DNA from: Blautia coccoides
GTDB lineage: Bacteria; Bacillota; Clostridia; Lachnospirales; Lachnospiraceae
Direction of reading: 5' to 3'
Assembly: GCF_034355335.1 (NCBI RefSeq)
Contig: NZ_CP136422.1
Coordinates: 2,049,001 to 2,113,000 of the forward strand
DNA length: 64,000 nucleotides
Below, in pieces: positions 21,915 to 39,946 of the stretch. The position numbers and the translations under genes were made by a program. The notes beneath the pieces were generated by a model. It was not told the origin of the DNA, made no database searches, and saw only the letters and a program-made list of their open reading frames with translations. Positions within the stretch are counted from its first letter, which is position 1. Each line of letters opens with the position of its first letter.

Positions 21915-21920
21915 GTAAAT

Positions 21921-21960
21921 GAGCAGAAGGTGTGCAAAGCGCATACTTTCTGCTCATTTT
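21921..21960. terminator. Bidirectional terminator between yqeC-mocA and XRE regulator
   Basis: Arms at 21921-21935 and 21941-21955 pair at 13 of 15 positions and are followed by ATTTTTC. The right arm overlaps the stop codon of the converging XRE gene. Confidence 0.85.
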
Positions 21961-22265
21961 TCTGCGAGAAGTTTCGCCAGATCAAGAAGTGCCCGGGCCT
22001 GTTCCTCATTTAACTGGCGGTAGAGACGGATCAGCTCTGCCTCATGAGGTGACGGATAAAGTATATTGGATTCCTCGTTGAAAAATTCTGAGAGATGCAT
22101 TCCAAGGGGGGACAACAGCGCGGTAAGGATCTCTATGCTGGGAATGCTCTCACCCTTCTCCACTCTTCTGATATAGTTGATGGAAACGTCACTTAATTGA
22201 GAGAGTTTATAGACACTTATCTGTTTATCTCTACGGAGTTTCGCAAGGTTTTCACCGATGTTCAT
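21954..22265 (-). CDS. XRE-family helix-turn-helix regulator
   Basis: A 103-residue DNA-binding protein. The helix-turn-helix spans about residues 4-58 (IGENLAKLRRDKQISVYKLSQ, then LSDVSINYIRRVEKGESIPS), followed by a helical tail. The start at 22265 has GGAAGGGAA upstream. A longer frame to 22367 reads through the promoter region and is rejected. A palindrome at 22323-22336 lies at its predicted transcription start, suggesting autorepression. Target genes other than itself cannot be read. Confidence 0.88.
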   Translation of the reverse strand: MNIGENLAKLRRDKQISVYKLSQLSDVSINYIRRVEKGESIPSIEILTALLSPLGMHLSEFFNEESNILYPSPHEAELIRLYRQLNEEQARALLDLAKLLAEK

Positions 22266-22322
22266 AAGAAATTTCCCTTCCAAATATGAGATATATCCGA
22301 CATTGCATAAAACATGACAAAT

Positions 22323-22336
22323 ATGGCAGATGCCAT
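22323..22336. promoter_or_regulatory. Palindromic operator candidate for the XRE regulator
   Basis: ATGGCA-GA-TGCCAT is a perfect 6-bp inverted repeat. It lies just downstream of the minus-strand -10 element at 22339-22344, where a repressor would block transcription start. Confidence 0.55.
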
Positions 22337-22338
22337 TT

Positions 22339-22367
22339 TTTATATTGTGCGGATTCGCCCTGTACAA
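22339..22367 (-). promoter_or_regulatory. Sigma-A promoter of the XRE regulator
   Basis: Minus-strand TTGTAC (22362-22367) and TATAAA (22339-22344) with a 17-bp spacer. Confidence 0.6.
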
Positions 22368-22423
22368 GTATATGCACTATATTATGCCCTAATAGGGATA
22401 AAATTATAAGCCAACAATTATGG

Positions 22424-22452
22424 TTTACAATAGTGTTATATTGTTGTAATAT
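22424..22452 (+). promoter_or_regulatory. Putative promoter of the diguanylate cyclase gene
   Basis: TTTACA (22424-22429) and TAATAT (22447-22452) with a 17-bp spacer. This would give a leader of about 160 nt containing three hairpins. The 22266-22618 gap thus holds two divergent promoters, an operator and the structured leader. Confidence 0.45.
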
Positions 22453-22467
22453 AGTAATTATTCAGTA

Positions 22468-22587
22468 GGTCTGCGCATTTACTGCGCTGACCGTAAGAAA
22501 ACATTCAGCAGCCGGGCAAAAATCCCATCGCCAAAGGCGATTTGCATGGATTTTTGCTCGTAACTGTAAGGGTACTGAACAGTTACG
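22468..22587 (+). ncRNA. Triple-hairpin 5' leader or interspersed RNA element
   Basis: Three successive hairpins are visible. The first is GGTC-T-GCGC (22468-22476) with GCGC-T-GACC (22484-22492). The second is a long stem 22514-22525 with 22548-22559, enclosing ATCGCC-AAA-GGCGAT. The third is CGTAACTGT (22559-22567) with ACAGTTACG (22579-22587). It does not match the c-di-GMP-I or -II riboswitch consensus that I know. It may be a leader of the cyclase gene or a dispersed repeat. Confidence 0.5.
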
Positions 22588-22618
22588 TAATATAATAGAT
22601 ATTCGGTAATTTTGAAGG

Positions 22619-23503
22619 GTGGTGGCAGGATTGGTCTATACCGTAATTTTTGAGGTGGATATTAAGAACAACCAGATATTATTTTTTCACACAGGTTCTC
22701 TGTCGGTCAATCTAAAGGCGGGAATCCTGTACGATTATGAGAAATTCCTGGAACAGTTTATCTTAGACAATGTCTATGAAGAAGAGAAGATAGACCTCTA
22801 TGAGAAGTTTAATATAGAGGCGCTGAGAAGCGCATCCCTGAATAAGAGAGAGAATATTACATGTGATTTCCGGCTCCGGCCGGAGGGTAACCGGGAATAC
22901 CGCTGGTTTACCATGAGCCTGATGCTTCCTCACGGAGCAGGCGGGGCTGTGGGAGCGATTCTGGATATCCATGATAAGAAAATTTATGAGCTGGAGATGC
23001 AGCATCAGGCGTCCCATGATGCCATGACAAACCTGCTGAACCGCCAGGCATTTGAGCGGGCAGTATTTTCCTATATCATGCAGGGCGGAAGGGTCGGAGC
23101 ATACTGCCTGATGGATGTGGATAATTTTAAACTGGTCAATGATACAAGAGGACATGCCTATGGGGATATTGCGCTGATGAAAATCGCGAAGATACTGACA
23201 GAGCTTGCCCCTGAGGGAACCATCACCGCTAGGTATGGAGGCGATGAATTCTGTATGTTTTTGCCCGGGATCGACAGGGAAGAGCAGTTGGAGCCTGTCT
23301 TAAAGAATATTCTGGAGCATGTAAAAAAAGAAGAGTTCGGAGGACTGCAGTTGTCCTTGTCTGTGGGGGTTGCCTTCTATCCGAGGCACTGTCCGGAAGA
23401 AAAACATTCCATAGGAAAATATGCGGATGTAGCGCTTTACAAGGCAAAAGAGTCCGGCAAGGACAGTTATTGCTTTTACAGCGAAGAGATGGGAGAATTT
23501 TAA
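22619..23503 (+). CDS. Diguanylate cyclase (PAS-like sensor plus GGDEF)
   Basis: About 294 residues. An N-terminal PAS-like sensor (about 1-115, ending in the DIHDKKIYELEMQHQ linker) is followed by a GGDEF domain (about 125-290). The active-site motif RYGGDEF is at residues 205-211, and MDVDNFKLVNDTRGHAYGD provides the metal aspartate. It should make cyclic di-GMP. No RxxD inhibitory site stands before GGDEF. The start is uncertain: GTG at 22619 sits too close to GAAGG, and TTG at 22631 has better spacing. No membrane segment is seen, so it is cytoplasmic. Confidence 0.9.
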   Translation: MVAGLVYTVIFEVDIKNNQILFFHTGSLSVNLKAGILYDYEKFLEQFILDNVYEEEKIDLYEKFNIEALRSASLNKRENITCDFRLRPEGNREYRWFTMSLMLPHGAGGAVGAILDIHDKKIYELEMQHQASHDAMTNLLNRQAFERAVFSYIMQGGRVGAYCLMDVDNFKLVNDTRGHAYGDIALMKIAKILTELAPEGTITARYGGDEFCMFLPGIDREEQLEPVLKNILEHVKKEEFGGLQLSLSVGVAFYPRHCPEEKHSIGKYADVALYKAKESGKDSYCFYSEEMGEF

Positions 23504-23508
23504 AAGGG

Positions 23509-23534
23509 GAGTCCGGCGAGCCGGACTCTTATTT
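23509..23534. terminator. Terminator between diguanylate cyclase and luxS
   Basis: GAGTCCGGC (23509-23517) pairs perfectly with 23520-23528 and is followed by TTATTT. It serves converging genes. Confidence 0.8.
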
Positions 23535-24012
23535 AGTTGGGATATATAAGACGGTCCGGGCCGATATGGTTCAGCACCTCGTCCAGATATTTTTTTGCCA
23601 GATAGTTTGCCATACCCAGATTCATATCCAGATAATTGCCGCAGTCTTTTGGAGAAGCACCCGGCACCTCATCTTTAAAATCACGGATAAATACAAACAT
23701 ATCTTTTAAAAGTTCCACGATATCGGAAGATTCATAATCCCCTGCCAGCAGCAGATAAAAACCTGTGCGGCATCCCATGGGGCCAAAGTAGATGATCCTG
23801 CTGCCGAATTCTTTGTGATTCCGCAGGAAAGTGGCTGCCAGATGCTCAATGGTGTGAACCTCCGCTGTGTTCATAACAGGCTCTTCATTGGGGGAAGTCA
23901 TTCGGATATCAAAAGTGGTGATCACTTCGTTCCCCACATGATCTTTCCGGGATACGTAGATGCCCGGCTGCAGTTTTATATGGTCAATGGTAAAGCTTGC
24001 GATTTTCTCCAT
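23533..24012 (-). CDS. luxS: S-ribosylhomocysteine lyase LuxS
   Basis: A 159-residue metalloenzyme of standard length that cleaves S-ribosylhomocysteine to homocysteine and the AI-2 precursor DPD. Metal ligands are H53 and H57 (HTIEH) and C124. The catalytic cysteine is C81 in GPMGCRTGF. A clear AAGGAGG lies 8 bp before the ATG. It lies 124 bp downstream of the histidine kinase on the same strand. No Pfs nucleosidase is adjacent. Confidence 0.97.
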   Translation of the reverse strand: MEKIASFTIDHIKLQPGIYVSRKDHVGNEVITTFDIRMTSPNEEPVMNTAEVHTIEHLAATFLRNHKEFGSRIIYFGPMGCRTGFYLLLAGDYESSDIVELLKDMFVFIRDFKDEVPGASPKDCGNYLDMNLGMANYLAKKYLDEVLNHIGPDRLIYPN

Positions 24013-24136
24013 TCTAGTCCTCCTTTTTATGGGTATCTTATTTTATTATTGTGGGTGTGCGGTTGTACCTCATGGCAGCCGCACAGTCTGCCGACAAAAT
24101 AATTATAATCCGTATGATAGCAGGATGCAAGCAGAA

Positions 24137-25471
24137 TCAGGCCGGGGCTGTCCTTAATATTATGGTAAAGGTAGCCCCTCCGCCCGGTGTGTCGGACAGG
24201 ACAAGCCGCCCTCTGTGTATCCTTACGATCTCCCGGGCAATGCTGAGTCCAAGTCCGAAGTGGTCTTTGCTGGTATGGGCCTTATCCTGGCGGAAAAAAC
24301 GCTGGAACACCTGTTTTTTGGAGGAATCTGGTATACCTGGGCCGTTATCGGCAACGGACAGGGAAACGTGGCCGGAAGTAAAAGACAGGGAAAGTGTAAT
24401 GCTGCCGGGGGCAGGCGTGTAGCTCAGGGCATTGTCCATAAGGATAGAGAGTACCTGCGCGATCCGCTCCTCATCACACAGCACAGGAGGGCATTCCTCC
24501 TCGGGAAGGCGGATATGAAGGGTCAGCCCTTTTTCCCTGGCCAGGTATTCGTATTTTTCATAGGTTTCCAGCAATAAGGTATCCGGGGGAACCGGAGCGG
24601 GCATGAGATCCCAGGAACAGGCATCTGCGCCTGCAAGCTGCAGCATGTCATCGATCAGGCGTGACATGCGCTTTCCTTCCGTCTGGATGGTTTCTGTAAA
24701 GCGGGCGGCTTCCTCGGGCTCTGCTTTCTGGGCAGCAGTCAGGCAGGAGAGCATGACCGCCAGGGGGGAGCGGAGTTCATGGGAGGCGGAGGCGATAAAC
24801 TGGGCCTGCTGTCTGCGGTTTTCCTCCAGGGGTGCCAGGGTTTTTCCCATGAAGATCCAGAAAAAGACGGCAAGCAGGAGCAGCGCCGCGGTATCCGCAC
24901 CCAGAAAGACAAGGCGCTGTCTGTTGATCTGATTTTTCTGGGCATCCAGAGACTGAAGGATAACAGCGCTTAAATGACCGTTTGTCTTGGGCAGCAGTAC
25001 CACGGAGGCGTGATATTCTTTCCTGTCATTGGTCTTAAATTGGAATTCCACGTGTTTTGACAGAAGGGAGGAGGCGTCTGCCGCGTCCAGATCCAGCCCG
25101 TATCTGGAAGATGCCGTCTCCTTTGCCAGGGTTATGGCATCCTTTTCCTTCTGCGTTCTGCGCAGCTCCTGATAGAAAAGAGGTCTGCCATTGTCATACA
25201 GCGAGAGGATGGTAGTATGGTTTTGCTCTATGCCTGCGATCCACTGGAGTGTGATGGTATTTTGGCTTTCCAGATGTGTGAGAATGGAATTTAAACTGTT
25301 GGTAAAGGAAGTGCTTCCGTTCTTTGCGATCCCGGATTCGGAAAAGTAGAGACACAGGCAGGTGGCAGCAGCCAGAATGAGTCCTGTGACAGCTAGGCAG
25401 AGCAAAGTGAGCCGGATACGCATTTTACGGACCAAGGGTGGGTGTGGCGGTCTCCCTTCTTTTCTAATCAT
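24137..25471 (-). CDS. Sensor histidine kinase, two membrane segments
   Basis: A 444-residue kinase. TM1 spans about residues 20-43, an extracellular sensor about 44-187, TM2 about 188-209, then the phospho-acceptor helix with H231 (SASHELRSPL). ATP-binding motifs are MDNALSYTP (N box), DNGPGIPD (G1) and FGLGLSIA (G2). It overlaps the upstream response regulator by 8 bp. The pair faces the divergent solute-binding protein operon and probably controls it in response to an extracellular ligand (inference). The sensor region has no recognised domain. Confidence 0.92.
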   Translation of the reverse strand: MIRKEGRPPHPPLVRKMRIRLTLLCLAVTGLILAAATCLCLYFSESGIAKNGSTSFTNSLNSILTHLESQNTITLQWIAGIEQNHTTILSLYDNGRPLFYQELRRTQKEKDAITLAKETASSRYGLDLDAADASSLLSKHVEFQFKTNDRKEYHASVVLLPKTNGHLSAVILQSLDAQKNQINRQRLVFLGADTAALLLLAVFFWIFMGKTLAPLEENRRQQAQFIASASHELRSPLAVMLSCLTAAQKAEPEEAARFTETIQTEGKRMSRLIDDMLQLAGADACSWDLMPAPVPPDTLLLETYEKYEYLAREKGLTLHIRLPEEECPPVLCDEERIAQVLSILMDNALSYTPAPGSITLSLSFTSGHVSLSVADNGPGIPDSSKKQVFQRFFRQDKAHTSKDHFGLGLSIAREIVRIHRGRLVLSDTPGGGATFTIILRTAPA

Positions 25472-26144
25472 GGCTCACCTCCAGACAGTAGCCGATCCCC
25501 CGGACTGTGCGCAGTGTAAGGGCGCTTCCCACGGTCCTGAGACGTCGGCGGATAAAGTGGATATAGTTGTCTAGATTACCTTCCTCCACCTCCGCGTTGG
25601 GTCCCCACACGCGGGACAGGATCATGAGACGTGGAAGGGTCTGGCCCGGGTTTCTGAGAAGAAACTCCAGAAGCGCGCCTTCTCGTTTTGATAAAACCAG
25701 TGTCTTGGAACCGCAGAGAAGCTGTTTTTGTGCGGGGTGGTAAGTGACATCTCCAAAAGTGATATCTCCGGACATCTCCAGATTACCCGGGCGCCGGGTG
25801 ATACAGCGGATACGTGCCAGAAGCTCCTGAAAATCATAGGGCTTGACCAGATAATCGTCGGCTCCTTGGTTAAGTCCTGTGATCTTATCTGAAAGCTCTC
25901 CCAGTGCTGTGACTAAAATGACAGGTGTGGAAATGCCCTCCCAGCGCATTTTCTCCAGGACGGTAAGTCCATCCATGGAGGGAAGCATGCGGTCCAAAAG
26001 AATCAGATCATGGGTGCGCTGCCGGATATAATCCAGCCCGTCCTCTCCGTCATAACATAAATCCGTGAGAATCCCCTCCTTTTCTAGCTGGAATTTCAGG
26101 GAATCGCAGAGTTTGCGGTCATCTTCTATTATTAAAATCCTCAT
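25464..26144 (-). CDS. OmpR/PhoB-family response regulator
   Basis: A 226-residue regulator. The receiver domain (about 1-115) has acidic pocket EDD at 7-9, phospho-acceptor D51 (LLDRMLPSMDG), switch threonine in VILVTALG and lysine in LVKPYDF. A winged-helix DNA-binding domain covers about 125-223 (LSKREGALLEFLL, VWGPNAEVEEGNLDNYIHFIRRR). It is transcribed first, with its kinase. Phased TTAGAGA repeats upstream are its likely binding sites. Confidence 0.94.
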   Translation of the reverse strand: MRILIIEDDRKLCDSLKFQLEKEGILTDLCYDGEDGLDYIRQRTHDLILLDRMLPSMDGLTVLEKMRWEGISTPVILVTALGELSDKITGLNQGADDYLVKPYDFQELLARIRCITRRPGNLEMSGDITFGDVTYHPAQKQLLCGSKTLVLSKREGALLEFLLRNPGQTLPRLMILSRVWGPNAEVEEGNLDNYIHFIRRRLRTVGSALTLRTVRGIGYCLEVSHD

Positions 26145-26193
26145 AAGAAATAAATCCTCCGGTTTTTTATTTATTTGAAGTATAACACAGGAA

Positions 26194-26255
26194 TCTTTAA
26201 GTTATCTCTAAAAATGTAAGAAAAATTAGAGATGATCTTAGAGAATGTTTAGAGA
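26194..26255. promoter_or_regulatory. Phased direct repeats, likely response-regulator operator
   Basis: TTAGAGA occurs on the plus strand at 26226, 26238 and 26249 (12- and 11-bp steps). On the minus strand TTAGAGA (26205-26211) and TTAAAGA (26194-26200) are also 11 bp apart. One-turn spacing suits OmpR-family dimers. The sites cover both halves of the divergent promoter region 26145-26299. Confidence 0.65.
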
Positions 26256-26299
26256 ATGGAATGATAAGATAAACGCAAATGAGAGACAGGAGGAGAAAC

Positions 26300-28582
26300 A
26301 TGAACCGATACATAAAAAAAGCAGTATGCCTGACAGCGGCTCTCGCCATTGCTGTGGCAGGCCTTGCAGGATGCGGGAAACAAAGTGAGGATAAGAGCAC
26401 GGAAGGTGCTAAGGGACGTTATCTGGAGGAGGATATAGCCCTCCCCGGGAACACAGGTAAGATCCTGGCCATGGAGAGACTGGATGACAACAGCCTGTCA
26501 CTTTTTACGGAGGATAAGGACACAGGAGAACGCTGTCTGTGGAAGTCAGAGGATTCAGGAAAAAGCTGGGAGGAGGATATCCTGCCGGAAGGACTCAGGC
26601 TTTCCGAGTGTGCCTACATAGATTGGGCCTGTATCAGCGGGAGTGGAGACATTGCTGTTTCTGCCATGCAGGAGGCGGCAGAGGTAGTCGTATCCCAGAA
26701 CTTTTCCCTCTTATATGCAAAAAAGGGGGGAGAACTGCAGAATCTGACACTTGACGTGGAGGAAACAGACAATATGAAAATGATCACCGGGCTGAGATTT
26801 TCTGAAGGTAAGAAGCTCATCGCCACATATACCTATGGAACGGTGTGTGTGATCGACCCGGACACCGGGCATGTAGAACAGACAATGGAATTGAGTGATA
26901 ATGTTCAGCAGACAGCGGACATGGGGAATACCCTTTTGCTTCTCACTGACAAGGGACTGAAAGCCTATGATATGAATACCGGGGAGTCCGCCGAAGCGGA
27001 CAAAACGCTTTCTGACCAGCTATTAAGTGAGCTTGAGAGTGAGCAGAAGAAGTTAAGAAACAGTGTGGTCTTTGGCTATGGAAAAGAGGAGGATATGCTG
27101 TTTTACTGTGCAGAGAGCGGCATTTACAGACATGTTTTCGGCGGTACCGTGGTGGAACAGGCAGTCAATGGAAGTCTTGCTTCCATAGGAAATCCCAAAG
27201 CTATGCTCATATCTCTGGCAGTTATGGAGGATGACAGCTTTCTTGTGGCGTGCTCTATAGACGCAGAGTACAAGATTTACCGCTATACTTACTCCGCAGA
27301 TACATCCTCCGTGCCGGAGAAGGAGATCAAGGTATATTCTCTGGAGGACTGCCCTGTGCTGAGACAGGCGATTTCCGTATACCAGAGTCAGAATCCAAAC
27401 GTCTATGTGAATCTGGAAATTGGTATGAGCGGTGAAGATTCAGTTACAGTCTCCGATGCACTCCGCACTTTGAATACAGACATTATGGCGGGCAAGGGAC
27501 CGGATATTTTGATTCTGGACGGAATGCCTGTGGAGAATTATATCCAAAAGGGACTTTTGGAGGATATAACGGATACGGTGGAGTCAGCAGATCAGGAAGA
27601 CGGATTGTTTGAGAACATTATGAAGACCTATGAGAGGGATGACAAAATTTATGCAGTTCCCCTGGGCTTTTTGATCCCGGCTGTCCAGGGAGAGGAGTCT
27701 CTTGTAAATGCAGCGGAAAGTCTGAAAACATTGGCTGAGGAGATTGGCAGCATTAGAGAGGAAAACCCGGATTTAGGGCGTGTCATAATACCCACGGATT
27801 CCGAAATGCTTCTGGAAATTTTCTATCGTCTGGAGAGTACAGACCTGAAAAAAGAGGACGGAACTCTGGATGAAGAGGCGCTGAGAACTTTCCTGGAAAA
27901 CATGAAAACTATTTATGGGGAACCGGTTACCCAGGATGAGCAGGAAAATTCCATCGGGTATTTCAGTGCTGCAAACGGTGTGGTATCCGACATTGACGGA
28001 CTGCGCCTGCAGGCCATGGCACTGCTGAGCCAGACATCGAAAGCAGGTGCAGGCTGGATCGGCTCAGTGGGGCAGCTTGTAGAGATTCTGGGTGTGAACC
28101 AGGCCTTTGATCTGGACTATGCAGAAATGAAAGCCCAGGGAAAAAGTGTATATCTTCCCTATCGAAATGTGGGGATCAGCAGCAAAAGCAGCGAGAAAGA
28201 GCTTGCAGCGGACTTTTTGAAGGCACTGCTGGGAGAGGAAGTACAGAGCACATTAAGTACAGCCTTCCCCATTAATCAGAAGGGCTATGAGAAGACGCTG
28301 GAGCTTGGAAAACAAACATACGGAGGAGACGGGGGAGGTGCTTCCATTACCATGTCAGACGCTTCAGGAAATATGTCATCCTTGAATATGAGCTGGCCAA
28401 AGGAGGAAGAACTGGATAAGCTGAAATCACTTTTGGAAAAAGCTGAGATTCCGGCCTCCACAGATGACACCATCTGGAATGCAGTAAAGGAGCAGGGAGA
28501 TAAATACCTGAATGAGGGCCTGAGCCTGGATGAGACCTGCAGTAATATCATACAGAAGGTGAATCTCTATCTGGCAGAGTAA
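26300..28582 (+). CDS. Solute-binding lipoprotein with N-terminal propeller-like domain
   Basis: A 760-residue lipoprotein. The start at 26300 has AGGAGGAG upstream, and a Met 21 bp earlier lacks one. A signal peptide ends in the lipobox LAGC (Cys near residue 25). Residues about 35-330 look like a beta-propeller, with an Asp-box (SEDSGKSWEED) and repeated short strands. Residues about 335-760 resemble an ABC-type family 1 solute-binding protein (VYQSQNPNVYVNLEI, GKGPDILILDGMP, YAVPLGF). Two MalF/MalG-like permeases follow directly. The bound ligand is unknown. The double architecture is unusual. Confidence 0.85.
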   Translation: MNRYIKKAVCLTAALAIAVAGLAGCGKQSEDKSTEGAKGRYLEEDIALPGNTGKILAMERLDDNSLSLFTEDKDTGERCLWKSEDSGKSWEEDILPEGLRLSECAYIDWACISGSGDIAVSAMQEAAEVVVSQNFSLLYAKKGGELQNLTLDVEETDNMKMITGLRFSEGKKLIATYTYGTVCVIDPDTGHVEQTMELSDNVQQTADMGNTLLLLTDKGLKAYDMNTGESAEADKTLSDQLLSELESEQKKLRNSVVFGYGKEEDMLFYCAESGIYRHVFGGTVVEQAVNGSLASIGNPKAMLISLAVMEDDSFLVACSIDAEYKIYRYTYSADTSSVPEKEIKVYSLEDCPVLRQAISVYQSQNPNVYVNLEIGMSGEDSVTVSDALRTLNTDIMAGKGPDILILDGMPVENYIQKGLLEDITDTVESADQEDGLFENIMKTYERDDKIYAVPLGFLIPAVQGEESLVNAAESLKTLAEEIGSIREENPDLGRVIIPTDSEMLLEIFYRLESTDLKKEDGTLDEEALRTFLENMKTIYGEPVTQDEQENSIGYFSAANGVVSDIDGLRLQAMALLSQTSKAGAGWIGSVGQLVEILGVNQAFDLDYAEMKAQGKSVYLPYRNVGISSKSSEKELAADFLKALLGEEVQSTLSTAFPINQKGYEKTLELGKQTYGGDGGGASITMSDASGNMSSLNMSWPKEEELDKLKSLLEKAEIPASTDDTIWNAVKEQGDKYLNEGLSLDETCSNIIQKVNLYLAE

Positions 28583-28595
28583 AGGGGAGCGGGCT

Positions 28596-29465
28596 ATGAG
28601 GCGTCACAACAGAATGAAAACGGGAAGAAACAGACAAAACAGGGCGGCGGCAGCATTTTTGCTGCCAAGCCTTGGAGGAGTAGCGCTGTTTGTCCTGATA
28701 CCCTTTGCGGATGTGATCAGGCGTTCCTTTCTGGATGCCATGGGGATAGAGTTCAAAGGAGTCGGAAATTATCTGGAATTGTTTCATAATTCTGCCTTTT
28801 TGCTGGCAGTGAAGAACACTATGCGGTTTGCTTTTATCTGTATTCCCCTTCTGTTACTACTTTCACTGGGAGTTGCAGTTCTGCTTTCGGGAGTTGGGAA
28901 AAAAGGGAGGATACTGAAAAATTTTTATCTGATCCCCATGGCCATTCCGGTGGCATCCATTGTGCTTTTGTGGAAGTTTTTATTTCACAGCCAGGGGTTT
29001 TTGAGTGCCTTCTTAAGCAGGGTACACTTATCGACACAGGACTGGATGAACAGCAGTGCTGCGTTCTGGGTGCTGGTCGTCAGCTATCTGTGGAAAAATA
29101 TGGGGTATGATATCATTTTGTGGAGCGCGGGTCTGGCCGCCATACCGGAAAATCTGTATGAAGCCGCCAAAGTGGACGGCGCCGGCAGCCTGGACTGCTT
29201 TTTCAGGATCACACTGCCCAATCTGATGCCTGTTTTTTATACCATCACAGTCCTCTCCTTTCTGAACTCTTTTAAAGTGTTCCGTGAGGCGTACCTGGTG
29301 GCAGGAGATTATCCCCATGACAGTATGTATCTGCTACAGCATGTATTTAATAACTGGTTTCGGGAGCTTTCGCTTGACAAGATGGCAGCAGGGGCAGTGA
29401 TAACATTTCTGGCAGTTATGATACTGATCCTGCTTCTGCAGAGGGCCTGGGGCAGAGAGGAATGA
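28596..29465 (+). CDS. MalF-type ABC transporter permease
   Basis: A 289-residue inner-membrane permease with about six hydrophobic segments, starting near residue 17 (AAAFLLPSLGGVALFVLIPFA). The EAA loop is EAAKVDGAGSLDCFFRITLPNL, matching the sugar-permease consensus. It starts 13 bp after the lipoprotein gene and overlaps the partner permease by 4 bp. With the partner it should form the channel of an importer of the carbohydrate class. No ATPase gene is in the operon, so a shared ATPase must serve it, or the role differs. Confidence 0.9.
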   Translation: MRRHNRMKTGRNRQNRAAAAFLLPSLGGVALFVLIPFADVIRRSFLDAMGIEFKGVGNYLELFHNSAFLLAVKNTMRFAFICIPLLLLLSLGVAVLLSGVGKKGRILKNFYLIPMAIPVASIVLLWKFLFHSQGFLSAFLSRVHLSTQDWMNSSAAFWVLVVSYLWKNMGYDIILWSAGLAAIPENLYEAAKVDGAGSLDCFFRITLPNLMPVFYTITVLSFLNSFKVFREAYLVAGDYPHDSMYLLQHVFNNWFRELSLDKMAAGAVITFLAVMILILLLQRAWGREE

Positions 29466-30307
29466 CTGGAATGAAAAAGGTTATTTTTGTGGTTTTAGGG
29501 ATTTTTGCACTGGCAGCAGCGTATCCGGTACTTTTTCTACTGGCGGGTTCCCTGATGGGAAAACAGGAACTGGCGGGGTATCTGTCACCGGTTCTGGCAA
29601 AGGGGGACGGATATGCGGCGTTTCGTCTGTTTCCCATGTACCCCACACTGCGGGCGTATGTTGAGCTGCTGCTGGATTCCCCGGGATATTTTGTAATGTT
29701 TTGGAATTCCATACGCATTACAGCGGGAATCCTTCTGGGACAGCTCCTGGTGGGAGTGCCTGCGGCGTGGGCATTTGCCAGATATGATTTTCCTCTGAAG
29801 AAGCCGGCGTTCACAGTATATATCACACTGATGATGATGCCCTTTCAGGTGACCATGCTTTCAAATTACCTGGTGCTTGACCGGCTGAGCCTTATGGATA
29901 CACTCTGGGCGGTGATACTTCCGGGGGCATTTTCTACATTTCCGGTATTTATCATGTACCGTTTTTTTACCGGCATACCGGAGGCTGTGGTGGAATCCGC
30001 CAGGATAGACGGGACAGGCGAAGGGAAGATATTCCTGTATATGGGGCTTCCTCTGGGGTCCGGGGGTATTTGCTCTGCGCTGGTTCTGGGATTTCTGGAA
30101 TGCTGGAATCTCATTGAACAGCCCCTCACATTTTTGAAAAATAAAGAGCTGTGGCCCCTTTCCCTGTATCTGCCGGATATCGGGCTTTTGGAAGCACCCG
30201 GGGCATTTGCGGCCTCTGTGGTGGTGCTTCTGCCGGCCCTTTTTATTTTCCTGGGCGGACAGGATTATCTGGAGCAGGGGATCGTGGCAGCAGCGGTGAA
30301 GGAATAG
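29462..30307 (+). CDS. MalG-type ABC transporter permease
   Basis: A 281-residue permease with about six membrane segments. The EAA loop reads ESARIDGTGEGKIFLYMGLPL. It overlaps the MalF-type gene (ATGA) and is followed 10 bp later by the HlyD-like gene. It forms the second half of the translocation channel. The substrate is unknown. Confidence 0.9.
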   Translation: MTGMKKVIFVVLGIFALAAAYPVLFLLAGSLMGKQELAGYLSPVLAKGDGYAAFRLFPMYPTLRAYVELLLDSPGYFVMFWNSIRITAGILLGQLLVGVPAAWAFARYDFPLKKPAFTVYITLMMMPFQVTMLSNYLVLDRLSLMDTLWAVILPGAFSTFPVFIMYRFFTGIPEAVVESARIDGTGEGKIFLYMGLPLGSGGICSALVLGFLECWNLIEQPLTFLKNKELWPLSLYLPDIGLLEAPGAFAASVVVLLPALFIFLGGQDYLEQGIVAAAVKE

Positions 30308-30317
30308 AGGTGGAGAG

Positions 30318-32000
30318 ATGATAGGAGCAAAAGGGATGAAAAGCCTGAGACAGAGAGCATTTTTTATGCTGACTATATTCCTGGTAATGATGATGGCGTT
30401 TACTGTCATATCCAGAGCTGCCGACAGTGTGACGGTAGCGCAGGTGGATGTGGAAAAGATCTCCGCCAAGGTCATCGAACATACCGTGGAGGGAGACGGG
30501 ACGGTGAAGGAGAATCTGGAGAGGGCCATCAGCACGGAACCGGGTATTATGGTGGAGACTCTGTTTGCCGTACAGGGCAGGCAGGTGGAAGAAGGGGAAC
30601 TCCTCATGCAGCTCAGGATGGAAGACATTGAGGAACAGATTGAAAACCTGACTGCGGAGATAAAAAAGCTGGAATTTAACAATCAGGATCTGGACAGTAA
30701 AAAGAAAGCAGAGCAACAGAAAAAATCGGTACAGGCCCAAAGAGCCATGGAGGATTATGAAAGGGCAGAGACCGAAGGGGGAAAACGGGTGGCGCAAGCG
30801 CAGGCAGCACTTGCAGAGGCGGAGGAAAAGCTGGAGGAATTCTATCAGACGCAGCAGGAAGAAAGCGGCGGCGAAGATGGGGATGTCTCAACACTGCAGC
30901 AGCTTTGCAGAGAGCGGGAGGAAGAACTCTCCGAAATGCAGAGCCGGATAGATGCCCTGCTTAAGAAGACGGAGGAAGAGATCTCAGAGGAAATCCGTCT
31001 GGCGGAGGAAGAAAAAGGTCCTTTGACAGAGGCTGAGAAGGGGGAGATCAGGACACGTGTGGAGCAGGAGAATGCCCGGGAGCTTACTGACGCACAACAG
31101 GGGTTTCAGGAGGCATCCCAGGCCCTTTTAGAGGCGCAGAATGCTCTTTCGGAGGCGGAAAACAGTATAAAGGCGGCAGGGGAACAGAGTGCCAAAGAGC
31201 AGGAAGCACAGCTTCTGGCTGATATAGAAGCAAAAAGACAGGCCTTAGAGGAAGCTGTGAAGGCCAAAGAGGACGGGGAGATACAGGCCGGCAGAGCGCT
31301 GGAGGATGCGGGGGCTGCTGAAGGCACTGACAGCACGGAAAAGATAAATAACCTGGATCTGGATGCGAAGAAGAAAAGTCTTGAAAAGCTGGAAAAACTG
31401 AAGGAGGATCAGGGGCAGATTCTGTCTCCGGTGAAGGGTGTGGTGACGGAATTGAAGGTTTCAGCAGGTGATAATACACCGGATACGGCGATCATGACAC
31501 TGGCAGATTTAAGCTCAGGGTGCAGATTTGTCATGCAGATAGACAAGAGCCTGGAAAAATATATAGCCAGAAAAGACCCGGTCAGGCTGTCCCCTGCGGA
31601 CGGCCAAAAGGACATTGAAAATCTGGAAGTGGAGAGCATTACACCGGATGGAGAGGATAAGACAAAACTTAATGTGACGGTCCTGCTTCCCGCTGATACC
31701 CTGGAGATCGGGGCTGCGGCAAAAATGACCAGTATGCGTAAGGAAAAGGTACAGGACACCTGTATTCCTGTGGAAGCCCTGCATATGGAAAACTCTAAAT
31801 ATTATGTACTGGTCGCGGAGGAAAAGGAGACGGTTCTGGGCACAGAACTGACAGCCGCCAGAAAAGACGTGGTCGTGAAGGATAAAAACAGTACCTATGC
31901 AGCGCTGGAGGGCAACAGCCTTCTGCCGGATGACCGGATAATCACAGGATCTGACAGGAACATTGGTGCGGGCAGCAGAATACGCCTGCGGGAAACATGA
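30318..32000 (+). CDS. HlyD-like membrane-fusion/adaptor protein
   Basis: A 560-residue protein with one N-terminal membrane anchor (about residues 12-33). A lipoyl-like half follows (EPGIMVETLFAVQGRQVEEGELLMQL), then a very long, glutamate- and alanine-rich coiled-coil hairpin (about 105-365). The second lipoyl half is SPVKGVVTELKVSAGDNTPD, and beta-barrel segments run to the end. This is the order of HlyD/MacA-type adaptors. In Firmicutes such adaptors usually pair with MacB-like exporters. Here it lies between importer-type permeases and a MacB-like fragment. It overlaps the next gene by 4 bp. Confidence 0.85.
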   Translation: MIGAKGMKSLRQRAFFMLTIFLVMMMAFTVISRAADSVTVAQVDVEKISAKVIEHTVEGDGTVKENLERAISTEPGIMVETLFAVQGRQVEEGELLMQLRMEDIEEQIENLTAEIKKLEFNNQDLDSKKKAEQQKKSVQAQRAMEDYERAETEGGKRVAQAQAALAEAEEKLEEFYQTQQEESGGEDGDVSTLQQLCREREEELSEMQSRIDALLKKTEEEISEEIRLAEEEKGPLTEAEKGEIRTRVEQENARELTDAQQGFQEASQALLEAQNALSEAENSIKAAGEQSAKEQEAQLLADIEAKRQALEEAVKAKEDGEIQAGRALEDAGAAEGTDSTEKINNLDLDAKKKSLEKLEKLKEDQGQILSPVKGVVTELKVSAGDNTPDTAIMTLADLSSGCRFVMQIDKSLEKYIARKDPVRLSPADGQKDIENLEVESITPDGEDKTKLNVTVLLPADTLEIGAAAKMTSMRKEKVQDTCIPVEALHMENSKYYVLVAEEKETVLGTELTAARKDVVVKDKNSTYAALEGNSLLPDDRIITGSDRNIGAGSRIRLRET

Positions 32001-33202
32001 GCGGCGGGAAAGGTGCTGTCTTTCGGTTTGTAGTTTTAGGTTTGCTGCTTCTCTGCTGGTTTTTGGCAGAGGCCGCTGCCATGGGTACAGAGAAATACAG
32101 TGAAGGGGTTTCCGTAAAAAAGACGAAGGGTACCTGGACCTATGAGGAGGCAGAGTTTATCCGGCAGGAGGAGCAAAAACAGGAATTTCCTGCATCCTGC
32201 ACCTTTTGGGGGGAGAGGGAGGAAGAGTATCTGGAAAGCAGGAAACTGGAAAGAGTGGAGACAGCCTTTGTCCTTGAGGTGCTGGGGGAGACCCGGGGAT
32301 TACTGCCGGCATCGGCGCCTCTGTACGGGGAGGACGAGGAGAGTTGTCTTCTGTCTGAGGATATGGCTTACAAATTGTTCGGAAGCAAAGATGTGATGGG
32401 GGAGGAGATTCTTTACCGGGGAAGAATTCTGACTGTCCGGGGGATTTTAAGGGGGATGGAGGGAACCGCAGCCGTACAGGCCGTCAGGGAGGGAGACAGT
32501 GTCCTTGACACCATAGCATATGAGGCGAATACGGAAGTTCAATCTTCGGAAAATCCGGTTCAAGCATTTCTTCTACGCCACGCAATACAGGGAAAGGTAC
32601 TGGAGCGAAAGTATTTTGCAGCCTGCGCAAAGCTGCTGATATTCTGTCTTCCAATGGTGATCTTTCTCAGAATGGCAGGGCAGATCACAGGAATTATGAG
32701 GGCGCAGAGGGGCAGACGGATACAGACAGCAGCCTTGTGGGCAGTGATGATACTGATGACAGTCCTATTTTTCATGCTTTTTTGGAAATCTCCCGGCCTG
32801 ACCAGGGGTGTGGTGCCAACAAAATGGTCAGACTTTACATTCTGGAAACACATGACGCAGCAGATACAGGATAATTTCAAACTGCTTCTTCAAATGAAAA
32901 AGACGAGCCTGGAGCTTCTTGTGCTCCGCCCCTTCTTTTCCTGTTTAATATACGGTGTTTTGACCTGGGGGTTATACGCTGTCAGGTGCAGGACACAGAA
33001 AAAGGCAGGGGCAGGGGAGACGGCGGCAGGGATACTATTTTCCTGGATCTTGCTGCTGGTCACCATCTGTTTTGCAGGAGAAAACGCCCTTTTGCTTGCG
33101 GGACAGAAAAGTGTCTGGTTTGGACCTTGTTTTTGGCTGATCGGAGAATATGCGATGGAAAGAATGCAGGTGTCCTATAAAAATAAGATAAATTCATACT
33201 AA
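31997..33202 (+). CDS. MacB-like periplasmic-core membrane protein, atypical
   Basis: A 401-residue membrane protein. An N-terminal hydrophobic segment (about 10-30) is followed by an extracytoplasmic domain (about 31-205). Its SCLLSEDMAYKLFGSKDVMGEEILYRGRILTVRGIL stretch (residues about 115-150) resembles the MacB_PCD/FtsX extracellular core. About four C-terminal membrane segments follow (near 212-230, 243-262, 305-325 and 345-380). No ATPase domain and no gene for one are present. It would plausibly dock with the HlyD-like adaptor. Family assignment is tentative. Confidence 0.6.
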   Translation: MSGGKGAVFRFVVLGLLLLCWFLAEAAAMGTEKYSEGVSVKKTKGTWTYEEAEFIRQEEQKQEFPASCTFWGEREEEYLESRKLERVETAFVLEVLGETRGLLPASAPLYGEDEESCLLSEDMAYKLFGSKDVMGEEILYRGRILTVRGILRGMEGTAAVQAVREGDSVLDTIAYEANTEVQSSENPVQAFLLRHAIQGKVLERKYFAACAKLLIFCLPMVIFLRMAGQITGIMRAQRGRRIQTAALWAVMILMTVLFFMLFWKSPGLTRGVVPTKWSDFTFWKHMTQQIQDNFKLLLQMKKTSLELLVLRPFFSCLIYGVLTWGLYAVRCRTQKKAGAGETAAGILFSWILLLVTICFAGENALLLAGQKSVWFGPCFWLIGEYAMERMQVSYKNKINSY

Positions 33203-33216
33203 CATATTTGATATAA

Positions 33217-33290
33217 GGATGTATGCCGGCAGGCGCGGTTAACGCCAGGAAAACCTGGTGCAGCGCTGTATTACCGCCAGGCTGCATCCT
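33217..33290. repeat. Long imperfect hairpin between converging genes
   Basis: GGATG..GCC near 33217-33240 pairs imperfectly with ACCGCCAGGCTGCATCC (33273-33289). An inner GCCAGG-aaaa-CCTGG hairpin (33244-33258) is also present. The right arm overlaps the GNAT stop codon. It may act as a weak bidirectional terminator, though the T-run is short. Confidence 0.5.
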
Positions 33291-33699
33291 TTAGCATTAT
33301 CATTTCCTGGGGCTGTTCAAAGGAAGTATTGTCCAAAAACAGACTTCCTCTATCTTTGTACCCAAGTTTTCTGTAAAAATGCTGGGCGCCTTCATCGACT
33401 TGTGTTGATGTCATAATGGTTTTATAGCCAAACCTCCACATCTCCCGCTCCCAGAAAAGCATGGCCTGCCTGCCAAAACCTTTGCCCCGGTAAGGTTCAT
33501 CCAGATAAAGTAAGGTCAAAAACGGTATGATATCCAAAAACAGATTATAACGCAGAACGCCTATGGGTTTATCCTCATCACAGATGATATATCCCCGTTT
33601 GTCCCGGAATTTTAATAAAAGTTCAAGTTCACTTATATGTGTATCGTAAGTAAGCCATAGAGATTTGTCAGATTCTATTGCATATCGGATTTTAAACAA
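33271..33699 (-). CDS. GNAT-family N-acetyltransferase
   Basis: A 142-residue acetyltransferase of the GNAT fold. The acetyl-CoA loop is the RGKGFGRQAMLFWE segment (consensus Q/RxxGxG/A), and the C-terminal strand is YRKLGYKDRGSLFL. The start is TTG at 33699, with GAGGTG 5 bp before it. It converges on the preceding operon. The acceptor substrate is unknown. Confidence 0.88.
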   Translation of the reverse strand: MFKIRYAIESDKSLWLTYDTHISELELLLKFRDKRGYIICDEDKPIGVLRYNLFLDIIPFLTLLYLDEPYRGKGFGRQAMLFWEREMWRFGYKTIMTSTQVDEGAQHFYRKLGYKDRGSLFLDNTSFEQPQEMIMLKDAAWR

Positions 33700-33905
33700 T
33701 GTAACACCTCTTATCTTTTTTTGAAGGATGGATTACTATGGAGATAAGGTTATAATCCACATTATTTGTCGTTATTTCATTTTTGTCAAGCAAAATCACC
33801 ATTTCTTAGTTGTTATGGAAGTGGCTGCCATGACGCCTCTTATAACCATTCAGGTTCTGGGATTGACGATGAGGGGAAAGCAGTATCCTAACCCAGGAGG
33901 AGTAT

Positions 33906-33971
33906 ATGGAGCAGGCGGAGAGAAAATATGAACTGGTGGTTGCAGTGAAGGACCATTTTATAGGGATTTGA
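33906..33971 (+). CDS. Possible 21-residue peptide or gene remnant upstream of trpS
   Basis: ATG at 33906 follows AGGAGG with 6-nt spacing and opens a 21-codon frame (MEQAERKYELVVAVKDHFIGI) ending 10 bp before the trpS -35 box. It has no tryptophan codons, so it is not an attenuation peptide. It may be the decayed start of a lost gene. The rest of the 33700-34041 gap holds the trpS promoter and nothing else I can support. Confidence 0.3.
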   Translation: MEQAERKYELVVAVKDHFIGI

Positions 33972-33981
33972 CTATAAAGAT

Positions 33982-34010
33982 TTGACTTTGTTCGAGCGGA
34001 ATGATACAAT
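33982..34010 (+). promoter_or_regulatory. Sigma-A promoter of trpS
   Basis: TTGACT (33982-33987) and TACAAT (34005-34010) with a 17-bp spacer. Transcription would start about 25 bp before trpS, leaving no room for a T-box leader. Confidence 0.8.
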
Positions 34011-34041
34011 TTAACGTAGTAAATTTCTGGAGGACATTAAG

Positions 34042-35046
34042 ATGATCAACGATAAAAAAGTATTATTCAGCGGAATGCAGGCAACCGGAAACCTGACACT
34101 TGGAAACTACCTGGGAGCGCTGAAAAACTGGGTGACATTGAGTGATGAATATGAGTGCTTTTACAGCGTTGTGGACATGCACTCCATAACTGTGCGTCAG
34201 GACCCGGCTACTCTTCGCAAAAGAGCCCGTGCACTTCTGACATTATATATTGCGGCAGGACTGGATCCAAAGAAAAACTGCATTTACTACCAGTCCCATG
34301 TATCAGGACATGCGGAGCTGGCTTGGATCTTAAACTGTTTTACTTATATGGGTGAGCTGAGCCGTATGACACAGTTTAAAGACAAATCTGCAAAACATGC
34401 GGACAATATCAATGCAGGGCTTTTCACTTACCCGGTATTGATGGCTGCTGACATTCTGCTCTATCAGGCAGATGTGGTTCCGGTGGGTATTGACCAGATG
34501 CAGCATCTAGAGCTGACACGTGATATTGCCACCCGTTTTAACAATATTTACGGAGATGTGTTCACGATTCCCGAAGCTTATATCGGCAAAGTGGGCGCAA
34601 AGATTATGAGTCTGCAGGAGCCTTCCAAAAAGATGTCCAAGTCAGATGAAAATCCCAATGGCAGTATCTATCTCATGGATGACCCGGATACGATCATGCG
34701 TAAATGCAAACGTGCCGTGACAGACTCCGAGGCTTGTATCGCATACAGAGAGGAACAGCCGGGACTTAAAAACCTGCTGGATATTTACTGTGCATGTACC
34801 GGTAAGACAACTGATGAAGCGCTGCGCGATTTTGAGGGCAGAGGATATGGGGATTTGAAGATGGCTGTGGGTGAGGCTGTCGTAAGTGTTCTGAAACCTT
34901 TACAGGATGAGGTTGCGAGACTGGAAAAGGATAAGGCATATATTGATTCCATCATCAAGGAGAATGCCGAAAAAGCCAGCTATTTTGCCAACAAAACGCT
35001 GCGTAAGGTACAGCGGAAAGTGGGATTTCCAGATAGGATCCGTTAA
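34042..35046 (+). CDS. trpS: Tryptophanyl-tRNA synthetase
   Basis: A 334-residue class I synthetase of normal bacterial length that charges tRNA-Trp. The HIGH-region equivalent is TGNLTLGNYLGAL and the KMSKS loop is exact (SKKMSKSDENPNG). GIDQMQHLELTRDIA is the tRNA/adenylate-site signature. It has a ribosome site (TGGAGG) before ATG 34042 and a short leader. It stands alone, with a GC-rich hairpin following. Confidence 0.97.
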   Translation: MINDKKVLFSGMQATGNLTLGNYLGALKNWVTLSDEYECFYSVVDMHSITVRQDPATLRKRARALLTLYIAAGLDPKKNCIYYQSHVSGHAELAWILNCFTYMGELSRMTQFKDKSAKHADNINAGLFTYPVLMAADILLYQADVVPVGIDQMQHLELTRDIATRFNNIYGDVFTIPEAYIGKVGAKIMSLQEPSKKMSKSDENPNGSIYLMDDPDTIMRKCKRAVTDSEACIAYREEQPGLKNLLDIYCACTGKTTDEALRDFEGRGYGDLKMAVGEAVVSVLKPLQDEVARLEKDKAYIDSIIKENAEKASYFANKTLRKVQRKVGFPDRIR

Positions 35047-35051
35047 GCTGC

Positions 35052-35078
35052 GCCGCGGGCCAGCCGCGGCATATATTT
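35052..35078 (+). terminator. Probable trpS terminator
   Basis: GCCGCGG (35052-35058) pairs with CCGCGGC (35064-35070) around a 5-nt loop, followed by ATATATTT. The U-tract is interrupted, so strength is uncertain. Confidence 0.55.
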
Positions 35079-35138
35079 GAATTACCGTAACAGGGAAGAT
35101 ACGGAACTGTTACAAATCTTGTACAGGAGGGAATGTAT

Positions 35139-35633
35139 ATGACAATGGATGAAGTGATCACCGTACTCAGTATGCAGGAGGAGATACTCCAGTTTTCGCA
35201 TTTTACAAACGAGGATGCATGGGAATTGGGAATGATGCTTGTGGCGGAGAGCAGACGAAGGGGTTTGGACTGTGCTGTATCCATCCGCAGGAATAATGGC
35301 TACACAGTATTTAAATACGCGGGGAATACAACCAATCTGAACAATGACCGCTGGATGGACAGGACATTCAATACAGTCCGTACGCTGGAAAAGAGCAGCC
35401 TTCTGGTATACAGTGAGCTGCAGAAGAATGAGGAGACCATGGTGGATATCGCCCTGGATCCGAAAGAGTTTTCCTGCATGGGAGGCGGTTTCCCTGTGCG
35501 TGTGGAGGAAGTAGGCGTGGTAGGCGCCATTATGGTGACTAATCAGAATCACTATATCAACCATGATATTATTGTAAAGACACTGGGAAGATACCTTCAT
35601 ATTGATGAGGTGCCCAGGATCAGAATGCTGTAA
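35139..35633 (+). CDS. UPF0303/GlcG-HbpS-like heme-degrading-domain protein
   Basis: A 164-residue protein of the UPF0303 family, with IRRNNGYTVFKYAGNTTNLNNDRWMDRTFNTV in the core and FPVRVEEVGVVGAIMVT near the end, the GlcG/HbpS-like signature. The start at 35139 gives 7-nt spacing from AGGAGGG. The ATG at 35133 is too close. Some homologues are annotated as heme-degrading, but no function is established for this one. It is probably a single-gene unit ending at a strong hairpin. Confidence 0.75.
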   Translation: MTMDEVITVLSMQEEILQFSHFTNEDAWELGMMLVAESRRRGLDCAVSIRRNNGYTVFKYAGNTTNLNNDRWMDRTFNTVRTLEKSSLLVYSELQKNEETMVDIALDPKEFSCMGGGFPVRVEEVGVVGAIMVTNQNHYINHDIIVKTLGRYLHIDEVPRIRML

Positions 35634-39131: not shown

Positions 39132-39946
39132 CAGAACATACCTCCTTGCCCGTCTTTGTCATACTTTGTGGTAACCACCATGCTGATCAGGATAAAGACC
39201 ATCAATACCAGGGAGAGTCCGCTTCCCACATGCCAGTTGCTGCCCTGCTTGAATTTCTGTTCGATGACATTTCCGATGAGCAGGATCTTGCTGCCGCCCA
39301 ACAGATCGGAGATAACAAAGGTTGTGAGAGCAGGTACAAATACCATGATGACGCCGCTTACAACACCGGGCAGACTGAGAGGAAAGATGATCTTCCTGAA
39401 GGTGTACAGCTCCGTGGCACCCAAATCTCTGGCTGCAGATATAACGTCTTTGTCAATCTTGGACAGAACATTGTACAGCGGCAGCACCATAAAGGGCAGG
39501 AAGTTGTACACCATGCCCAGTATAATGGCGTAAGGCGTATTGATGAGCTGGATGGAGGGCAGGTGAAGAAAATTTAAAAACTGATTGATCACGCCGTTTT
39601 TCTCCAGCAAAGTCTGCCACGCCATAGTGCGCAGCAGAAAGTTCATCCACATGGGAAGGATGAAGATCAACACGATAAAACTGGTCTGATTCACCTTCAT
39701 GCCGGATAAAATCATGGCAAGGGGGTAGGCTAACAACAGACAGATGACTGTGCTGACAATAGAGAGCAGCAAAGAGAGGCACAGGGCCTTGAAATTCTCC
39801 ACAGTTCCGATCGCCAGAAGATTTTCATAAGTCAGATGCCCGTCCACATCTGTCAGACCATAATATAAGACCATGGCAAGGGGAATCAGAATAAATGCCA
39901 CGGCCCAGAAAAAATAAGGTCCGGTCAGTAATTTTTTTCTATTCAT
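39131..39946 (-). CDS. potB: Spermidine/putrescine ABC transporter permease PotB
   Basis: A 271-residue permease with six membrane segments and the EAA loop [21 protein letters not shown]. It pairs with the PotC half of the fusion to form the channel. It overlaps potA by 8 bp and potCD by 3 bp of stop/start codon, so the three are translationally coupled. Confidence 0.93.

Follow-up and report, generated by a model that had tools for sequence, protein, structure and literature searches.

ATP-binding cassette (ABC) importers of the CUT1 type, such as MalEFGK and AraNPQ-MsmX, have a lipoprotein solute-binding protein (SBP) and MalF/MalG-type permeases with EAA loops; for importers served by MsmX or Clo1313_2554, the ATPase gene is described as lying elsewhere (PMC7658222, PMC9601137). 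MacAB, YknWXYZ, and Spr0693-0695 have a HlyD-family adaptor, a MacB-type extracellular core, and transmembrane (TM) helices. In a 64,000-nucleotide stretch of the Blautia coccoides genome (assembly GCF_034355335.1, contig NZ_CP136422.1, positions 2,049,001 to 2,113,000; here called the window, with positions counted from its first nucleotide), a five-gene operon brings together components of both kinds: an SBP, two permeases, a HlyD-type adaptor, and an ATPase-less MacB-like membrane protein. Unlike in CUT1 importers, the SBP has an extra N-terminal strand-rich domain, and the importer genes are linked to HlyD and MacB-like genes and to an OmpR-type two-component system (TCS). Unlike MacAB and its relatives, the operon has neither a LolD-type ATPase nor an FtsX domain and is importer linked.

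In Mce transporters, permeases are combined with extracellular tube proteins, and the ATPase, MceG, is shared and encoded elsewhere. They belong to unrelated protein families, and their likeness to the module would be functional only. In YtrBCDEF of Bacillus subtilis, as in the window, a MacB-like protein shares an operon with other ABC permeases; we know of no HlyD adaptor in that system. Unlike the window operon, Ytr includes two ATPases of its own, and YtrF contains an FtsX-like domain (PMC8060467). The CbpC operon of Clostridium thermocellum (Cthe_2125-2128) supplied the best fold and profile match of the receptor (i.e., the SBP), although CbpC lacks its N-terminal domain. That operon is described as having four genes, with two permeases and cbpC named (PMC8303734); the fourth, Cthe_2127, may be an ATPase, acra, or something else, an acra gene being named among sugar ABC clusters in the Fig. 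1 legend of PMC9601137. In the open-licence literature, we recognized no description of the combination of importer, HlyD adaptor, and MacB-like protein. Each half is of a known kind, and the fixed combination, the lack of FtsX and LolD in the module, and the shared operator possibly make it a new one.

We lean slightly towards the reading that the five proteins form one dedicated, TCS-induced envelope machine, in which a type I importer core is joined by a HlyD-type adaptor and by an ATPase-less MacB-like dock.

A conserved five-gene module

The operon (Table 1) reads SBP, MalF, MalG, HlyD, and MacB-like; gaps of 13 bp (SBP-MalF) and 10 bp (MalG-HlyD) alternate with overlaps of 4 bp (MalF-MalG and HlyD-MacB-like), and the histidine kinase (HK) and response regulator (RR) genes diverge from it. 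The compact operon, its MalF and MalG permeases, and the divergent TCS had been proposed from the letters of the window without database searches (the sequence-only reading), and all were confirmed; the HK, the RR, the SBP, and both permeases (BPD_transp_1, 1e-15 and 4.1e-10) had Pfam matches above the cutoffs. Because of the tight gene spacing, a single transcript for the operon is likely. Within positions 21000 to 35500, promoter-like sites were at chance level (21 versus 17.6 expected; standard deviation [SD], 4.8) and terminator-like sites were above it (30 versus 12.6; SD, 3.1), some of them within the operon.

Table 1 Features of the locus in the window
Feature	Position	Strand	Evidence or remark
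HK, sensor histidine kinase	24137-25471	-	Pfam HisKA and HATPase_c
RR, OmpR-type response regulator	25464-26144	-	Pfam Response_reg and Trans_reg_C
Operator-like direct repeat facing RR-HK	26195-26211	-	One mismatch to TTAGAG-N5-TTAGAG
Three TTAGAG repeats	26226, 26238, 26249 (span 26226-26254; spacings 12 and 11)	+	Putative RR site
TGATAAGAT, extended -10-like element	26262-26270	+	Predicted from the sequence
SBP lipoprotein	26279-28582, likely start 26300	+	Pfam SBP_bac_8, 4.5e-10
MalF/UgpA-type permease	28596-29465	+	BPD_transp_1; intact EAA loop
MalG/UgpE-type permease	29462-30307	+	BPD_transp_1; EAA-type loop (ESA here)
HlyD/membrane fusion-type adaptor	30318-32000	+	Hairpin insert of ~270 residues; RND_mfp 2.3e-14, under cutoff
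ATPase-less MacB-like membrane protein	31997-33202	+	TM1, MacB-type extracellular core, further helices, P-x-x-W-S-D-F loop

The sequence-only reading staked its proposal on the linkage recurring outside this strain. The gene order was found to be conserved over many genera, and the combination is no local accident. The source genome has three copies of the gene set (the window and loci L020 and L082), and 14 of 20 genomes of the same genus had a match to the MacB-like protein; among relatives, identity to the window protein drops to ~20%. When a 16-row profile of the MacB-like protein was searched against 250 genomes of the family (249 genera), 83 genomes matched at 0.001, with many weak matches spanning the core domain alone and apparently representing true MacBs (one checked). 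Strong matches (E value of 1e-15 or better; next best, 1e-11) were obtained in 32 genomes, representing 31 of the 249 genera. Two of these genomes (G129 and G165) were left out, and 34 loci were taken from the search. All five genes were present in 32 of the 34 loci (the MacB-like open reading frame [ORF] of L076 is short, with 194 amino acids [aa]); the exceptions were L068, where neither a MalF nor an SBP ORF was picked, and L071, where no MalF ORF was. The genus sample gave all five genes in 15 of 18 loci, the others being a remnant (L022), a locus cut at a contig end (L028), and L034, where the MacB-like ORF was unpicked though the protein search matched there. In the remnant (in genome G008), a C-terminal MacB-like piece adjoins a kinase fragment.

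Because both locus sets were selected via the MacB-like protein, a MalG-centered sample served as the independent test. An alignment of MalG replaced that of the MacB-like protein, which was too diverse, for a scan of named genomes, and the best 80 of 560 confirmed matches were taken; a MalG ORF was picked in 75, of which 54 had enough flanking sequence. These 54 loci, from the best 80 of 560, contained SBP (54), HlyD (54), MacB-like (52), MalF (52), RR (47), and HK (44) genes, with a MalK-type ATPase gene, divergently oriented, in 1. The five loci without a picked MalG ORF still carry HlyD and MacB-like genes, and the missing MalG was taken for an artefact of ORF picking. In a pool that mixes the MacB-like-chosen and MalG-chosen samples, 123 of 124 MalG proteins of the subfamily had a HlyD gene within 4.5 kb on the same strand and 116 had a MacB-like gene. 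Neither neighbor was present beside the five other MalG-type permeases of those stretches.

In a class sample, 79 of 391 genomes matched at 1e-5, and in a phylum sample 74 of 398 did, mostly through short core-domain matches; strong matches from outside the family came from three genomes only (G562, G430, and G545). Five distant loci (L164, L245, L246, L247, and L248) have related genes of low similarity, and no MalK-type ATPase gene adjoins L245. At two of them, a gene for a D-Ala-D-Ala carboxypeptidase (Peptidase_S11) lies between the two-component and transporter genes (L246:11415-12485 and L247:5238-6215), a hint towards the cell wall. A tblastn search of plasmids with the MacB-like protein gave no match.

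The adaptor and its predicted dock

For the single window proteins, matches to HlyD_3 (0.001) and MacB_PCD (0.0062) were under the curated Pfam cutoffs. The assignments hold on the strength of family profiles and, for the MacB-like protein, also of its predicted fold, in agreement with the HlyD-like adaptor and the MacB-core-like protein without an ATPase of the sequence-only reading. A profile of 47 adaptors matched membrane fusion proteins in the PDB, with 6vej (1.1e-23), ZneB (2e-15), and MexJ (7.7e-15) ranking above MacA (4dk0, 2.2e-13; 5nik, 6e-10). Given this ranking, sequence comparison places the adaptor in the HlyD/membrane fusion family and not specially with MacA. The hairpin insert has 270 residues in the window protein; its median length is 243 residues (range, 155 to 514).

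Of the 46 members of the MacB-like family, 35 matched MacB_PCD (best, 6.9e-12) and none matched the FtsX domain at 0.01. The positive control, a true MacB encoded in the same genome, matched both (7.8e-35 and 1.3e-23, respectively); it adjoins a LolD-type ATPase and a HlyD protein, and the HlyD-LolD-MacB set lies at L103:6177-10621 (G000, about 3.92 Mb). The family profile had one good PDB chain match, the extracellular domain of YknZ (1.9e-7). In the model of the window protein (predicted local distance difference test [pLDDT], 93.1; predicted TM-score [pTM], 0.89), one helix precedes a MacB-type core and more helices follow it. High-ranking Foldseek matches of the model (29 at ≤0.001) included YknZ, Spr0695, a heme exporter, MacB, and LolCDE, and its extracellular domain alone reached a TM-score of 0.6 by target length. 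According to the model, then, the protein has the type VII (MacB/LolE) fold with a MacB core. An extracellular-core cysteine (window residue 117) is invariant in all 46 members, and the motif P-x-x-W-[ST]-[DE] occurs in 41 (residues 274 to 282 of the window protein).

The turn between the two helices that come after the core comprises four residues in the window model, at a place where MacB carries a coupling helix (PMC5985334). So short a turn would leave little room for such a helix, which is a hint only, because some relatives have a longer stretch there. A regular expression written to detect the coupling helix of FtsX missed its own positive control and was discarded. A LolD-type ATPase gene is absent from the window operon; such genes occur in the stretches of 7 of 132 loci, none within the module, and at L020 and L023 the nearby LolD-type ATPase is that of a BceAB-like pair (labeled by size and motif).

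That the adaptor would dock on the MacB-like core is supported by two described adaptors: YknX directly binds the extracellular domain of YknZ (PMC4887032), and Spr0693, a Gram-positive example of adaptors that form nanotubes on efflux pumps, measures ~154 Å from membrane to tip in a model (PMC5768738). With the adaptor docked on its ATPase-less MacB-type core, the MacB-like protein would serve as a docking platform and not as a motor.

Importer permeases and a candidate ATPase

The components of a type I (CUT1) ABC importer, namely, an SBP and two BPD_transp_1 permeases, are present in the operon. The EAA loops were scored by alignment column counts, a stricter expression having been dropped. 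In MalF, the key columns were E in 48, G in 49, and P in 49 of 49 sequences; in MalG, they were E in 46 and D in 5, G in 51, and P in 51 of 51.

The sequence-only reading had stressed the lack of an ATPase. This is true of the five-gene operon of the window but not of the family, since a contiguous MalK-type ATPase gene is present in eight related loci (L030, L032, L083, L084, L164, L246, L247, and L248; labels by similarity, supported in L164, L246, and L248 by a check for the OB_MalK and TOBE domains). In L030, L032, L083, and L084, the order is SBP, a 177-aa-type protein, HlyD, MacB-like, MalF, MalG, and ATPase. The small protein between receptor and adaptor is encoded at L030:10025-10558, L083:2484-2999, and L084:12187-12822; that of L030 matches DUF5666 weakly, under the cutoff.

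The best match in the source genome to the ATPase of L030 is a lone gene (5552036-5553136; 51% identical) that sits between a PucR-type regulator and a kinase. Its product has OB_MalK and TOBE domains, and its nearest solved relatives are 7x0q, which is probably Clo1313_2554 of C. thermocellum, and MsmX. Clo1313_2554 is reported as a standalone gene on which a sugar transporter without an ATPase depends (PMC9601137), and MsmX-like multitask ATPases are reported to be interchangeable between species (PMC7658222). At the MsmX contact residues, the lone ATPase keeps D, R, and K (three of four), with Q replacing E110. Taken together, the intact EAA loops, the eight loci with a MalK-type ATPase gene, and the lone MsmX-like ATPase suggest that the importer half is probably powered in trans, and the lone ATPase is a candidate for this service. 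The shared ATPase that the sequence-only reading had envisaged thus fits the data, with its service to this operon a prediction.

Elsewhere in the window, there are ABC_tran matches at about 40.5, 51.9, and 63.7 kb, the third of them at the window end. An ORF of 621 aa (37266-39131) has a permease-like N terminus and a solute-binding-like C terminus (PotC-PotD-like by eye), and an ABC ATPase gene (39939-41012) lies on the same strand.

The receptor lipoprotein

Because an AGGAGG sequence is present at positions 26288 to 26293, the ATG at 26300 is a more likely start than position 26279. The receptor was modeled (pLDDT, 86.9) with a strand-rich N-terminal domain, which has 24 strands over residues 38 to 347 (numbered from 26300), followed by a CUT1-type binding domain. 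The sequence-only reading had described the protein as an Asp-box propeller with a solute-binding domain. The latter stood, as did one Asp box (SEDSGKSW), with an S-x-D-x-G-x-x-W counterpart in 41 of 59 relatives. As for the propeller, a profile search of the PDB with the whole sequence matched NHL and WD40 proteins weakly, and no propeller appeared among the 50 Foldseek matches listed for the model; an N-terminal propeller is thus plausible but not proven.

The best fold match of the receptor was CbpC (E value, 2.8e-18; TM-score, 0.69 by target length), followed by YesO and others. CbpC was also the best match of a 12-row SBP profile (4.4e-23); with the window sequence alone, it came fifth (0.0024), behind YesO. 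The SBP of L247 had no PDB match at 1e-10. Queries with fragments of CbpC matched none of 398 genomes and gave one weak match in 22 genomes, such fragment searches being uninformative. A C. thermocellum mutant of transporter C is reported to have grown normally on three substrates (PMC9601137), and earlier binding data disagree with the finding of that study that CbpC binds no sugar (PMC9601137, PMC11212667).

In the second copy of the gene set, the receptor gene reads as two overlapping ORFs of 324 and 461 aa, roughly one per domain (L020:3382-5738). The receptor of L023 is one 793-aa ORF.

A shared operator motif

Direct repeats of TTAGAG precede the operon and likely constitute the site of the response regulator, whose binding is predicted from their sequence and position. 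From 74 divergent RR/SBP regions, 58 remained after length limits and near-copy removal. In these, 5-mers were repeated at 11 bp 238 times, compared with 25 times in shuffles. The exact pair TTAGAG-N5-TTAGAG occurred in 26 of the 58 divergent regions, in 2 of 481 other intergenic regions of those loci, and in none of 1,160 shuffles; with up to one mismatch per half, the counts were 41, 6, and 23, respectively. A strict triple-repeat pattern misses the window, in which one spacing is 12 and not 11. Matches to a -10-like element recur after the repeats in relatives, an offset of 10 being the most frequent (8 in the window).

In the whole genome, the exact pair was found three times. Besides that of the window, one precedes the paralogous operon L020, and one, taken as chance, falls where a coding frame ends. 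The third paralogue, L082, has a weaker repeat site. Allowing up to one mismatch, the genome search gave 7 matches, compared with 40 for a control pattern read backwards, so that the count speaks for rarity and place, not for enrichment. From the small number of exact pairs and their placement, the response regulator looks local and dedicated. Directly downstream of the HK gene, luxS lies on the same strand (23533-24012).

One machine or separate parts

In the mechanism that we propose, the signal sensed by the kinase would be the ligand or an envelope state related to it, and the regulator, binding the TTAGAG repeats, would turn on the operon and its own genes. The lipoprotein receptor, with its predicted propeller-like and CUT1-type domains, would capture the ligand at the outer face, and MalF-MalG, driven by a MalK/MsmX-type ATPase encoded elsewhere, would move it inwards. 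The HlyD-type adaptor, docked on the MacB-type core, would present its hairpins as a tube or scaffold through the wall. We infer that the five proteins form a complex. If they do, the direction that we propose, at about even chances, is import of a bulky or wall-restricted ligand. The fullest version of this proposal is tentative: a categorically new, wall-crossing ABC machine with an importer core, a HlyD tube on an ATPase-less MacB-type dock, a shared MalK-type ATPase, and its own TCS, in which components of efflux type would have been converted to uptake or sensing.

Several observations weigh against a single machine. The adaptor's best PDB matches are RND-type adaptors, with MacA after them, and to our knowledge, HlyD-type adaptors are known only from exporters. 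Over its whole length, the MacB-like model has TM-scores of ~0.3 to MacB/LolE, with root mean square deviations of 13 Å or more. Three Eisenbergiella loci (L236, L238, and L241) have a HlyD gene and no MacB-like gene. On a 91-row MalG tree with nine ATPase-labeled rows (including the doubtful L073, with a noncontiguous gene), the cognate-ATPase label switches at least four times, and five dedicated ATPases keep all four MsmX contact residues, which makes shared and dedicated ATPases indistinguishable by these residues. Among the 132 loci that have a MacB-like gene, 8 (L166, L169, L173, L180, L188, L192, L210, and L240) also have a true MacB gene upstream of the module, 5 of them together with a LolD-type ATPase in the same stretch, and at such loci LolD may be borrowed. 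Finally, CbpC is reported to have bound none of the sugars tested and to have a blocked pocket (PMC9601137).

This last point would suit a different role for the complex, in sensing or mechanotransmission, which we regard as unlikely yet ahead of the other alternatives. Instead of feeding the cell, it would read wall-active compounds or the state of the wall, and the MalFG/ATPase cycle would work on the extracellular parts or on the kinase, as has been proposed for some MacB-type systems. Consistent with this role are the module's own TCS with its common operator motif and the carboxypeptidase gene near two distant loci; no constant enzyme gene was seen beside the operon, most neighbors being unclassified. 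Antibiotic sensing is among the described roles of MacB-type proteins (PMC5985334), and a thicker wall accompanies overexpression of the ytr operon, which includes a MacB-like protein (PMC8060467). However, the solute-binding domain and the intact EAA loops point to translocation, and a BceAB-like pair was noticed near two loci only, L020 and L023.

Less probable still is a plain CUT1 importer beside which the adaptor and the MacB-like protein act separately, e.g., in peptide export driven by a LolD-type ATPase borrowed from elsewhere. Exporters are the usual partners of HlyD adaptors, and the true HlyD-LolD-MacB set elsewhere in the genome and the true MacB genes upstream of eight modules would be in keeping with such a pair. 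These upstream genes may also mean that, in one lineage, the module is functionally tied to a complete MacAB-type set. However, all eight of those loci retain the MacB-like gene. The absence of an FtsX domain from the 46 MacB-like proteins, the MalK type of the contiguous ATPase genes, and the HlyD linkage in every one of the 54 MalG-centered loci (from the best 80 of 560) likewise argue against a separate pair. Export by a reversed MalFG-type core, with substrate pushed through the adaptor tube, is very improbable despite the efflux-pump nanotubes mentioned above, as all known CUT1 permeases with a lipoprotein SBP are importers and the source genome has no match to the outer-membrane factor PF02321 (control genomes do match).

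The module is present in many Lachnospiraceae genomes, with two or three copies in some of them, and, taken one by one, its parts would pass for a sugar importer and an efflux adaptor. The idea of one complex can be tested directly through the conserved operator and the lone ATPase. If the five proteins do form a single complex, a class of presumed sugar importers would have been misassigned, HlyD-type adaptors would not belong to exporters only, and the ATPase-less MacB-like protein would be a structural component.

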